Virus record (IMG/VR): IMGVR_UViG_3300046692_000589 | Location: 1 to 42,256 of that record | Reading direction: 5' to 3' (one strand) | Origin: a virus | Length of the DNA stretch: 42,256 nucleotides | Shown: positions 30,668 through 33,775 of the stretch, piece by piece | Layout of the letters: each line of letters opens with the position of its first letter | Position numbering within the stretch: the stretch's first letter is position 1 | Program-made: the position numbers and the translations under genes | Notes under the pieces: generated by a model | Seen by the model: only the letters and a program-made list of their open reading frames with translations | Databases searched by the model: none | Told to the model about the DNA's origin: nothing

Positions 30668-30884
30668 GATGGGACTCCCGCGATTCATCGACAGACCGGC
30701 AATTTACACATTGTGTGCAACCCGACATAGCAAGCCGACGAGCTTCGGGGATGGGATCGTCGCAACCTTCACAGAACAAAAATGAATGCGCCGCCGAAGC
30801 AGGCTTGGCGGCGTTACGAGCGGCGAGTGCCTGGTCAAGACGTTCCTGCACCAGGTCATTAGCAAAGTCAGCTGTATCAGCCAC
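30657..30884 (-). CDS. TraR/DksA-type zinc finger protein
   Basis: A 75-residue protein beginning at a GTG (30884) as V/M-A-D-T-A-D-F-A-N-D-L-V-Q-E-R-L, preceded by GGGGTG. It has a C4 zinc finger, C-E-G-C ... C-V-N-C (C-x2-C, 17 residues, C-x2-C), with P-I-P-E-A-R-R between, as in TraR. Such proteins bind the RNA polymerase secondary channel and change transcription. It overlaps both neighbours, so translation is probably coupled. Confidence 0.88.
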   Translation of the reverse strand: MADTADFANDLVQERLDQALAARNAAKPASAAHSFLFCEGCDDPIPEARRLAMSGCTQCVNCRSVDESRESHHAR

Positions 30885-31395
30885 GGTCGGCACCCCGCGC
30901 TGTCTTGTTGACGTGAGTGGCACGGTTGAACATTCCGAGCAATCCTTGAATACCACGGAACACCCGAAGGCGAATCTCGGCCAGTTCGTGGTCGGTCACC
31001 ACGCCGTCGCCGATGCTCTTGGCCCACGTGTCGGCCAGATCAGCGACCTGCCGAAAATAAGCAGCAATGCCGACGGTCAAGGTTTCAGGCATGTCGCTGG
31101 AGTAAGCCTCGGCCAGCTCCTGCCAAGTCGTATCCCCTACCAACGCGTGTACCGCGTCGAGAATGCGACGATCCTTGGTCAGCTCCAGAATCTCGCTAAA
31201 TTCCTGAATGTTGACTATGTGACTGGGATGGGTGGGAGACAGTTTGTGTTGCAGCGTGGTGGGATTGCGGCCGGTGGTGGCGGCAATTGCGGCGGCGCCA
31301 CCGGGATAATCCCGCGCAGCATGGTAAAGCGCTAAATCGAGCGGCAGGATTTCCCGCTGCGCCCGTTCTACACAACTCAGAGCGATTCGGCTCAT
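30877..31395 (-). CDS. CII-like phage regulatory protein
   Basis: A 172-residue helical regulator with A-L-Y-H-A-A-R-D-Y-P-G-G-A-A-A-I-A near 22-38 and L-Q-H-K-L-S-P, the pattern of the phage regulatory CII family in P2-like and Pseudomonas phages. It lies second after Cro in the leftward early transcript, where lambda has cII, and may favour lysogeny. AAGG lies upstream of the ATG. Confidence 0.8.
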   Translation of the reverse strand: MSRIALSCVERAQREILPLDLALYHAARDYPGGAAAIAATTGRNPTTLQHKLSPTHPSHIVNIQEFSEILELTKDRRILDAVHALVGDTTWQELAEAYSSDMPETLTVGIAAYFRQVADLADTWAKSIGDGVVTDHELAEIRLRVFRGIQGLLGMFNRATHVNKTARGADRG

Positions 31396-31748
31396 GGCAT
31401 TAATCCTTGAAGGTTGCCAGTGCCACGCGACGTGCAGTGGTGCTACGATTGCCGCGTGGCTTGAAGTGGCCCAAACGCCGGTCCAGATCCTAGGATCGAC
31501 ACCGGCACCGTGCTAGGGCGAACTATCCGTTGTTCACCCTGGCACAACAGCTGCTCTATCTGTGGTGGAGAAGGCAGCAACGCCAAGGCATCCGTGCCTT
31601 GGAAAGCGCGGTATAGATCGACGGTTAGCATGTGGTGTGCCCGCCTATCTTTATCGCGACCCGACAGCGCTGTGGTGGTGCCTGTCGGGAGAAACTGGGC
31701 GGCCTTTGGCCGCCTTTTTTCTAAGTCTGGATTGAGTTGGCCCCGCCG
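31396..31748 (+). ncRNA. Gap between cII and cro with candidate rightward structured RNA
   Basis: A 353-base region without a firm gene. Its right part has two consecutive stem-loops on the rightward strand: CCCGACAG / CTGTCGGG (31660-31689) and a terminator at 31698-31720. This is the usual 3' end shape of a small RNA. One rightward frame from about 31516 (N-Y-P-L-F-T-L-A-Q-Q-L-L-Y-L-W-W) looks protein-like but has no good start and stops at about 31613. The 5' end and promoter are not visible. Confidence 0.35.
31698..31720 (+). terminator. Rightward intrinsic terminator between cII and cro
   Basis: Stem GGCGGCC / GGCCGCC, 3-base loop TTT, then six T residues on the rightward strand. It would stop transcription running toward cro and cI, opposite to the cro-cII transcript. 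Confidence 0.75.
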
Positions 31749-32021
31749 CTATGCGGCATGCGTCGCGACACGGAGGTACGGGTTAGGAAAAATATCAGGA
31801 AGGTCTGGACGAAGCTCATAGGGCTGAACCTTACCCCCGGACGCACGAGAAACAGCATGAACACGCTCAGTAGGGACTCGACCTGCTTTAAGCCACTTCC
31901 AAACATGGGGTTGCTTAACGCTACAACGGCGAGCTAGTTCAGACTGATTATTGCCACATGCTGAAAGGGCTTGTTCTAGCGCTTCTCGGCATTGAACGAC
32001 CTCTGTTGGTGTGGTTGTCAT
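31749..32021 (-). CDS. Cro-like helix-turn-helix regulator
   Basis: A 90-residue protein with a helix-turn-helix of the Cro/YdaS type: E-A-L-E-Q-A-L-S-A-C-G-N-N-Q-S-E-L-A and V-K-Q-P-H-V-W-K-W-L-K-A-G. The ATG at 32021 is chosen; the longer frame begins at a TTG. It is divergent from cI and first in the leftward early operon, so it should repress cI after induction. The leader is only about 25 bases. Confidence 0.85.
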   Translation of the reverse strand: MTTTPTEVVQCREALEQALSACGNNQSELARRCSVKQPHVWKWLKAGRVPTERVHAVSRASGGKVQPYELRPDLPDIFPNPYLRVATHAA

Positions 32022-32052
32022 CGGACTCTCTGGGACAGTGATTTCGACTGAC

Positions 32053-32082
32053 AATCTACAACCTTTGTAATAAGCAGGTCAA
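32053..32082 (-). promoter_or_regulatory. Leftward early promoter (pR-like) for cro
   Basis: TTGACC (32077-32082) and TAGATT (32053-32058) on the leftward strand, 18 bp apart. An operator-like dyad, TACAA / TTGTA, lies between them, so repressor binding would block polymerase. The start would lie about 25 bases before the cro ATG. Confidence 0.65.
32058..32071. promoter_or_regulatory. Operator-like site O1
   Basis: ACAACCTTTGTAAT, within the dyad TACAA-CCT-TTGTA, located between the -35 and -10 of the cro promoter. One of four related sites around cI. Confidence 0.6.
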
Positions 32083-32094
32083 CACCCAATGTTT

Positions 32095-32124
32095 TAAGAC
32101 GAGCTACAACCAAGGTCGTAGAAT
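32095..32124 (+). promoter_or_regulatory. Rightward cI promoter (pRM-like)
   Basis: TAAGAC (32095-32100) and TAGAAT (32119-32124), 18 bp apart. A start 6-7 bases downstream would fall on the A of the cI ATG (32131), giving a leaderless message, which fits the absence of a ribosome site there. Confidence 0.45.
32106..32119. promoter_or_regulatory. Operator-like site O2
   Basis: ACAACCAAGGTCGT within CTACAACCAAGGTCGTAG, a dyad with one mismatch pair, lying inside the cI promoter spacer. Confidence 0.55.
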
Positions 32125-32130
32125 TAACTC

Positions 32131-32928
32131 ATGAAATATCTACCTTCAGAATTTTTGCCCACTCTCGCCGACCGGCTAAAGTACGCCATGGAACAGCTCG
32201 ACATGAGCCAACCAGACGTAGCTAAACTCGCCGGCTGTTCGCAGACAACAATATTTAAGATTCTTGCTGGGCTCACGAGAGAAAGTCGCAAGACTGGCTC
32301 GATTGCCAGAGGATTGAATATTTCGGTCGCGTGGCTTGAGAACGGAGACATGCCCGCGACGGTCACCCCTATAACGCCCGACCAACCGATCTTCAAACAA
32401 CGGTCCGCGTTAGACCTTGCACCTATCACTGCCTGGGATAGCTCCACCCCGCTTGACGATGGAGCGGTAGAAATCCCTCTATTCAAACAGGTAGAGATCT
32501 CGGCAGGTAGCGGGCGAACAGCAGTTCAAGGTGAATGGGGTCGAATAATTCGATTCCCTGAAGCCACCCTACGAGAATGTGGTGTTGAGGCAGCAAACGC
32601 TATGTGTGCCTCCGTTACAGGTAAGAGCCAAGAGCCTTTGATACTGCACGGGGCAATAGTCGGTATCGACCGCGGGATGACCAAAATCATCCCGGATCAT
32701 TTGTATGCTATTGAGCAGGAAGGCTCGCTCCGAGTGAAATTTTTGGAACGATTGGATGGCGGCGGACTTCGGCTCATCAGCTACAATCGGGGAGATTTCC
32801 CAGACGAAACATATTCGTTTGACCAATTTATGGAACAACAAATGAAGGTCCTTGGACGCATTTTTTGGTGGTCCACTATTCGCCCAGTAAACGCGTACCC
32901 ACTACCGCATTGTCCGTATAATGGCTAA
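32131..32928 (+). CDS. CI-like repressor with S24 autocleavage domain
   Basis: A 265-residue repressor. Residues 12-50 hold a helix-turn-helix (M-S-Q-P-D-V-A-K-L-A-G-C-S-Q-T-T-I-F-K-I-L). The C-terminal domain is LexA/CI-type S24: cleavage site at A125-G126, nucleophile S166 in G-K-S-Q-E-P, and K203 in L-R-V-K-F. These indicate RecA-stimulated self-cleavage and SOS induction. It maintains lysogeny by binding the operator sites on both sides of its gene. There is no clear ribosome site, consistent with a leaderless message. Confidence 0.92.
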   Translation: MKYLPSEFLPTLADRLKYAMEQLDMSQPDVAKLAGCSQTTIFKILAGLTRESRKTGSIARGLNISVAWLENGDMPATVTPITPDQPIFKQRSALDLAPITAWDSSTPLDDGAVEIPLFKQVEISAGSGRTAVQGEWGRIIRFPEATLRECGVEAANAMCASVTGKSQEPLILHGAIVGIDRGMTKIIPDHLYAIEQEGSLRVKFLERLDGGGLRLISYNRGDFPDETYSFDQFMEQQMKVLGRIFWWSTIRPVNAYPLPHCPYNG

Positions 32929-32931
32929 CCT

Positions 32932-32945
32932 ACAACCTTAGTTGT
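32932..32945. promoter_or_regulatory. Operator-like site O3 after cI
   Basis: ACAACCTTAGTTGT, perfect ACAAC / GTTGT dyad, 4 bases after the cI stop and upstream of the rightward early operon; lambda oL analogue. Confidence 0.6.
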
Positions 32946-32956
32946 TGCTAAAACCT

Positions 32957-32970
32957 AAAACCTAAGTTAT
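32957..32970. promoter_or_regulatory. Operator-like site O4 upstream of the early operon
   Basis: AAAACCTAAGTTAT, related to O3, with an extra half-site AAAACCT just before it (32950-32956). A weak promoter (TTGTTG, then AGTTAT 17 bp on) overlaps O3 and O4 and could drive the rightward operon. Confidence 0.5.
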
Positions 32971-33008
32971 TTTTGCCTCACTCTCCCACCACAGAGCGAG
33001 GCAACACC

Positions 33009-33188
33009 ATGCACACCACAGCCACCCTGCACGTCCATCCGGCGTGCACCAGCAATCGGAAACTGATCGAGCAGCTGCAATCCACCACCGGCTGCCTGAT
33101 CGTCATCCACAACAACAAACCTAAACTTGTCGCTAAAAGCTACCAGCCCACCCCCTTCGATCCGAATGGCGGAGGGCACGCAGCATGA
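33009..33188 (+). CDS. Small early protein, unknown
   Basis: A 59-residue protein, first gene of the rightward early operon. GAGG sits 7 bases before the ATG at 33009. It has H-T-T-A-T-L-H-V-H-P-A-C and C-L-I-V-I-H-N-N-K-P-K-L-V-A-K. Small proteins of this type occur in Pseudomonas prophages; function not known. It overlaps the next gene by ATGA. Confidence 0.7.
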   Translation: MHTTATLHVHPACTSNRKLIEQLQSTTGCLIVIHNNKPKLVAKSYQPTPFDPNGGGHAA

Positions 33189-33775
33189 TCAAGTTCAAAA
33201 TCGACAACCGCACACTGCAGTTGCTCAACGCCCAGGTAAACCTGACAGAGACCTTTAAGCATGCCCTAAGGTCCACACCCAAGCGTGAAGCCTTGGCATT
33301 TCGTTTGAAGGTCGAACGCGGCGCCACCGACACCCTCTTTGTCGTCGAACTGGGCAGCGAACGCCACACGCTGACCTTGAAAAACGAGAAGAAGATGCAC
33401 CTTAAGCTGGCCGACTTCATTGAAGAAATCGCCAACGGTCCATTCGACCCCACCAACACAGTCGACCTGTCGGACCTCCCACACTCCTACCGCCAATACG
33501 CCCGCTTCGATGCTGAGCATAAGCAGCGAGTTTTTGAGCTCGTCCGTACGGGCGGTTCGCTGTGTCTCGACATGGGCTTTGAGCAACCGATTAACTTGGC
33601 CATCCACCGCACCCAAACGCGCCCCGGCGTCACCACCATCATGAGCATCGGCGTAAGACGCCCACGCACTAAGAGTTTCTCGGTGTGCGGTACCGACGAG
33701 CAGATCTACGAAAAAATCGCCGAATCCATCAACCACTTGGCTGCCGTGGCGACGCCCGCCGCGCATGCAGCATAG
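33185..33775 (+). CDS. Early protein, unknown
   Basis: A 196-residue, mixed alpha/beta protein without recognised motifs; I see no membrane segment. The middle includes L-T-L-K-N-E-K-K-M-H-L-K-L-A-D-F and a polar stretch around D-L-P-H-S-Y-R-Q-Y-A-R-F-D-A-E-H. ATGA overlap with the gene before it places it firmly in the operon. Confidence 0.7.
   Translation: MIKFKIDNRTLQLLNAQVNLTETFKHALRSTPKREALAFRLKVERGATDTLFVVELGSERHTLTLKNEKKMHLKLADFIEEIANGPFDPTNTVDLSDLPHSYRQYARFDAEHKQRVFELVRTGGSLCLDMGFEQPINLAIHRTQTRPGVTTIMSIGVRRPRTKSFSVCGTDEQIYEKIAESINHLAAVATPAAHAA

Follow-up and report, generated by a model that had tools for sequence, protein, structure and literature searches.

The sequence analysed here is the whole 42,256-bp virus record IMGVR_UViG_3300046692_000589 (hereafter the window), and all coordinates are window positions. 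The phage is temperate and of the Pseudomonas type. The genes and control features around its cI repressor gene are listed in Table 1. In the cI product, the peptidase and helix-turn-helix domains were recognized with E values of 3e-16 and 2e-5, respectively; the product matched phrog_4 (transcriptional repressor, E 2e-36), and the N-terminus resembles the structures of 434 Cro and 434 repressor. Relatives of this CI were found in viral contigs and in the genomes of Pseudomonas caspiana and P. aylmerensis. The divergent gene at the cro position encodes a product matching PF15943 (E 8e-17) and phrog_35 (transcriptional repressor, E 1e-19), and in the same operon the CII-like gene is followed by a VapE-type replication gene. 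Downstream of cI and on the same strand, an early operon of small genes of unknown function starts at 33009. The product of its first gene matched phrog_13491 and phrog_35204, both families of unknown function, while the Pfam search of this product gave no match and no N-like family was matched. The gene order (cII-type gene, cro-position gene, cI, pL operon) is that of lambda.

Table 1 Genes, promoters, operators and inverted repeat around cI (window positions)
Feature	Position	Strand	Details
CII-like regulator gene, cro operon	30877..31395	-	PF06892 (Phage_CP76), E 1e-21; phrog_101, CII-like
cro-position gene	31749..32021	-	YdaS-family HTH protein; ATG at 32021, divergent from cI
pR (cro promoter)	32053..32082	-	-35 TTGACC (32082-32077), 18 bp, -10 TAGATT (32058-32053)
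Operator OR1	32057..32072	.	TACAACCTTTGTAATA; centre -66.5 from cI ATG, within pR spacer
Operator OR2	32081..32096	.	AACACCCAATGTTTTA; centre -42.5 from cI ATG, overlaps pR -35 box
Operator OR3	32105..32120	.	TACAACCAAGGTCGTA; centre -18.5 from cI ATG
pRM, -10 box and predicted start	32119..32131	+	-10 TAGAAT (32119-32124); predicted +1 at A of cI ATG
cI repressor gene	32131..32928	+	265 aa; HTH (PF01381) and Peptidase_S24 (PF00717)
Operator OL2	32931..32946	.	TACAACCTTAGTTGTT; downstream of cI stop
pL (early operon promoter)	32945..32980	+	-35 TTGCTA (32945-32950), 17 bp, -10 TATTTT (32968-32973); predicted +1 at A 32980
Operator OL1	32956..32971	.	TAAAACCTAAGTTATT; in pL spacer and -10 box
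Inverted repeat / predicted RNA hairpin	32973..33004	+	TTGCCTCACTCT-loop-AGAGCGAGGCAA; directly after pL -10 box
First gene of early (pL) operon	33009..33188	+	59 aa; function not assigned

Operator sites on both sides of cI

On the two sides of cI lie five related dyad sites of 16 bp, three in OR and two in OL (numbered as in lambda, site 1 being nearest the early genes). They are symmetric, evenly spaced and conserved: the centres are separated by exactly 24 and 24 bp in OR and by 25 bp in OL. The first-pass annotation had listed four sites, in the cro promoter spacer, in the cI promoter and twice after cI, and all four were found in these places; its count of two sites in OR has to be raised to three, since it overlooked OR2, a weaker site lying midway between OR1 and OR3 that gives the exact 24-bp spacing. 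OR1 is enclosed by pR, OR3 covers the 3' part of the pRM spacer and reaches two bases into the pRM -10 box, and the centre of OL1 is at -16.5 from the predicted pL start.

A matrix built only from the sites of four relatives (L003, L005, L009 and L010) ranked the five window sites first to fifth in the 42 kb, with 17.4-21.8 bits as against 9.9 bits for the next-best match; as all four relatives are homologous to the window, this gauges how well the sites are conserved and how specific they are, and does not amount to discovering them independently. When similarity and symmetry were scored together, the five-site comb exceeded 400 out of 400 null sequences matched in local composition, the spacings being fixed to those observed. 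A search of the whole window with the loose consensus ACAACCNNNGTTGT, allowing up to three mismatches, showed no enrichment (58 found, about 90 expected). Thus, the evidence for operators lies in spacing and conservation, not in the pattern count. Near pL no third OL site could be observed, only two sites exceeding 10 bits with the relatives-only matrix. In relatives whose CI is 72-76% identical, the positions of the five sites, the pR boxes and the 6-nt spacing from the pRM -10 box to the cI ATG are kept, and the sequence around operators and boxes varies. The pR boxes are kept throughout L003-L011.

Further comparison was made across 80 viral loci that share the first early gene and carry several sequence-distinct CIs; the operator analysis covered loci in which the repressor gene directly precedes pL. 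The best match between OR and OL averaged about 13 of 16 positions within a CI type and 11 across types, and when the OR and OL regions of five CI types (A-E) were paired in all ways, the true pairing was the best of 120 permutations. A motif derived from OL alone located OR sites at -66.5/-42.5 (or -43.5)/-18.5 in type A, to which the window belongs, at -63/-42/-19 in eight out of nine loci of type B (MNTL/METL), and at -57.5/-32.5 in type C (MIDKE). In types C and D, no more than one or two OR sites were clear, their positions differed, and the pRM -10 boxes were poor; in types C-E no third OR site was clearly placed by the OL-derived motif. The motifs of OR and OL change together between CI types, as they should if a single repressor recognizes both regions, and this joint change is the strongest indication that it does so. 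The comparison across CI types also offers natural matched sets of repressors and operators.

Promoters and the cI message

The boxes of pL are weak in the window (TTGCTA/TATTTT), and other CI types have stronger boxes at the same position. For pRM, no good -35 box was found in the window, and OR2 sits at the activator position; a poor -35 region is expected of a promoter that is activated by a repressor bound at -42.

The pRM -10 box is followed by 6 nt and the ATG of cI, and standard prediction puts the transcription start on the A. The same arrangement is found in lambda (NC_001416), where TAGATT is separated by 6 nt from the ATG, and in relatives with this CI, in which TAGAAT or TAAAAT, 6 nt and ATG are kept. 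The earlier proposal that this box sets the cI start on the ATG as in lambda is therefore borne out as far as spacing and its conservation can tell. The prediction of a leaderless cI message appears well founded; the pRM transcript would begin with the A of the AUG and be translated without a leader. In 23 cI genes, which represent seven N-terminal types, the hexamer most like a -10 box ended 5-7 nt before the ATG. These are raw matches counted without a null, and some of those outside type A agree in only three of six positions, so that a -10 box just before the ATG is suggestive beyond type A. A Shine-Dalgarno (SD) sequence at a usable distance was not found for cI, the only candidate being AAGG about 15 nt upstream of the ATG, a weak anti-SD match which lies before the predicted start and is probably too far away to act as a usual SD. 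The cI of lambda is the classical leaderless message (PMC4965119), and in prophage CP-933P a leaderless start has been mapped for the CI analogue PaaR2, which faces a YdaS-type Cro analogue (PMC8630535). In the open-access literature, we found no report of a mapped leaderless cI message in Pseudomonas phages.

It should be considered that cI might be read in the lysogen from a longer message, started further upstream or at a CII-dependent promoter. During establishment, a leadered cI message is also produced in lambda, from pRE, and the CII homologue encoded here, like the AAGG upstream of the ATG, would fit such a message. On the other hand, the -10 box, the 6-nt spacing and the ATG are kept together throughout this CI type, the best hexamers of other CI types end at a similar distance from the ATG, and the SD signal of cI genes is weak (median -2.8 kcal/mol) compared with that of the first early ORF (-7.5). 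We consider a leadered message in the lysogen unlikely.

The switch compared with lambda and CP-933P

Measured in the lambda genome (NC_001416), the centres of OR3, OR2 and OR1 lie at -19, -42 and -66 from the A of the cI ATG, which is closely matched in the window (Table 1). The region very probably represents a complete lambda-type immunity region, in which CI bound at OR and OL would shut off the early operons and cI would be expressed as a leaderless message from pRM. It comprises a CI with HTH and S24 domains, a divergent HTH gene with a cII-type gene behind it, three OR sites about 24 bp apart, and the same type of operator at a second early promoter after cI. Three OL sites were not found here; they are a detail of lambda and not required of the lambdoid class. 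The lambda-like oR/oL layout described in the first-pass annotation thus stands in its geometry, with two OL sites in place of the three of lambda.

On this basis, we suggest that CI dimers, probably acting cooperatively, would occupy OR1 and OR2 on the cro side and OL1 and OL2 at pL and turn both early operons off. From OR2, whose position is like that of lambda OR2, CI would activate the -35-poor pRM. OR3, which lies over the pRM -10 box, might serve negative autoregulation or be used by the YdaS-type Cro.

The region shares with lambda the divergent arrangement of cI and cro, the three OR sites and their spacing, the distance from the pRM -10 box to the cI ATG, the (here predicted) leaderless cI message, a pL promoter that follows cI and points in the same direction, and a CII-type gene in the cro operon. 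It differs in that the sites are 16 bp long and have another sequence, two of them instead of three form OL, a YdaS-family protein is encoded at the cro position, a hairpin leader is present at pL, and cI abuts pL without rex genes. The geometry of the lambda switch (-66/-42/-19, with a predicted leaderless cI) recurs here with other operator sequences and a YdaS-type Cro, and these phages thus offer a new set in which to test both leaderless translation and activation from OR2.

A YdaS-type switch is not without precedent. For the PaaR2/YdaS/YdaT switch of CP-933P in E. coli O157:H7, the transcription start has been mapped and footprints have been made (PMC8630535), and YdaS, although named a toxin in Pfam, has been argued to be a Cro analogue (PMC8630535, PMC5917428). 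As in the window, a CI analogue faces a YdaS Cro analogue there, and operators are present at pRM, pR and pL (PMC8630535); CP-933P differs in that its intergenic region holds four inverted repeats of 18 bp and its CI operon carries a toxin-antitoxin pair. The kind of switch is already known; our analysis adds a third site in OR, a geometry like that of lambda, operators that change jointly in OR and OL from one CI type to another, and a probable read-through lock at pL.

The same system raises the question of which protein reads the sites, because the CI analogue and YdaS of CP-933P give footprints in one intergenic region with overlapping repeats (PMC8630535), and the identity of a binding protein cannot be read from sequence alone. 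The five sites could then be read mainly by the YdaS-type protein or another regulator, with CI using other DNA. However, they are found beside pL as well as pR, change with the type of CI and occupy the positions of the CI sites in lambda, and we regard this alternative as improbable. Still more remote is the idea that the two sites after cI belong to a cI terminator: each is a short inverted repeat, and a run of T (32970-32974) is close by, but their stems are A+T-rich, the same motif recurs in OR with fixed spacing, and a scan of 32928-33009 found no terminator-like site, so this reading was dropped in favour of putative CI operators.

The inverted repeat at pL

The 3' arm of the inverted repeat contains the SD sequence (GAGG) of the first early ORF (33009), and its outer 5' arm overlaps the discriminator of pL and lies upstream of the predicted pL start. 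As transcription from pL would begin just after the outer arm, only RNA that reads through from cI should be able to fold and hide the ribosome site. The predicted folds agree with this: the cI read-through RNA reaches -16 kcal/mol (z -5.7), while RNA started at A32980 reaches -4.4 and has no such stem. In 61 distinct leaders, the medians of the predicted folding energies were -14.1 for read-through RNA and -4.4 for pL-started RNA. At least three-fourths of the scored SD bases were paired with the 5' arm in the predicted folds of 84 out of 86 distinct leaders, of which about a dozen were scored at an inner AGAG instead of GAGG, their folds pairing GAGG too.

The exact core of the hairpin is present in at least 119 viral contigs. 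Among the viral-contig matches listed, 105 of 115 exact hairpins had the predicted start of their best promoter on the base that immediately follows the outer arm GCCTC; an equivalent start was predicted for 64 of 72 distinct leaders of the first gene, a set that overlaps with the former. The 59-aa first early gene accompanies the hairpin across many CI types.

These folds and start positions suggest a model that we moderately favour, namely that the hairpin forms on read-through RNA only. In RNA reading through from cI, the fold would make the ribosome site of the first early gene inaccessible; RNA begun at pL, lacking the outer 5' arm, would allow this gene to be translated. By a slightly narrower judgement, we would extend this to the large group of related temperate phages (hosts, where known, Pseudomonas), in which the hairpin may insulate the pL operon from the cI message whatever the type of repressor. 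If so, it would constitute a second, translational lock on lysogeny beside repression by CI, and would explain how leaky early expression is avoided although cI runs into the early operon without a detectable terminator.

A comparable device is known from T4, where a hairpin hides the ribosome site of I-TevI, segB and similar genes on RNA reading through from upstream, and a promoter is so located that transcripts begun there are unable to fold in this way (PMC2988022). The arrangement proposed at pL, where the hairpin rests on predicted folding, is the same as that of I-TevI. The two differ in use: the T4 device delays homing endonucleases to late times, and that at pL would insulate an early operon from the cI message. 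We found no report in the open-access literature of a promoter-excluded hairpin at the pL of a temperate phage, and an Rfam scan of 31500-33600, up to an E value of 1, revealed no known RNA family.

Conservation of the repeat may also be read at the level of DNA, as a site for another dimeric regulator or simply as an initially transcribed region that is conserved. Sequence conservation extends over most of the repeat, and a formal covariation count was not above that of column shuffles, which leaves this alternative a reasonable, if less probable, one. It accounts less well for the location of the SD in the 3' arm, for the tolerance of G-U pairs and for four divergent leaders (L062, L078, L085 and L276), in which pairing is kept through two-sided changes. 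We thus lean towards a hairpin acting in read-through RNA.

Several leaders depart from the common form. Two distant ones (L291 and L292, upstream of 1501) carry a wholly unlike stem, CGCGTAC/GTACGCG, ahead of a gene of the same family; RNA begun at their predicted pL start would retain most of the 5' arm, which speaks against the model. In L258-L266, a CCTC between the GAGG SD and the ATG could form an alternative small stem over the ribosome site. In L089, L095 and L269, the usual pL promoter and the 5' arm of the hairpin are replaced by other sequence, as though recombination had joined two sequences in the leader.
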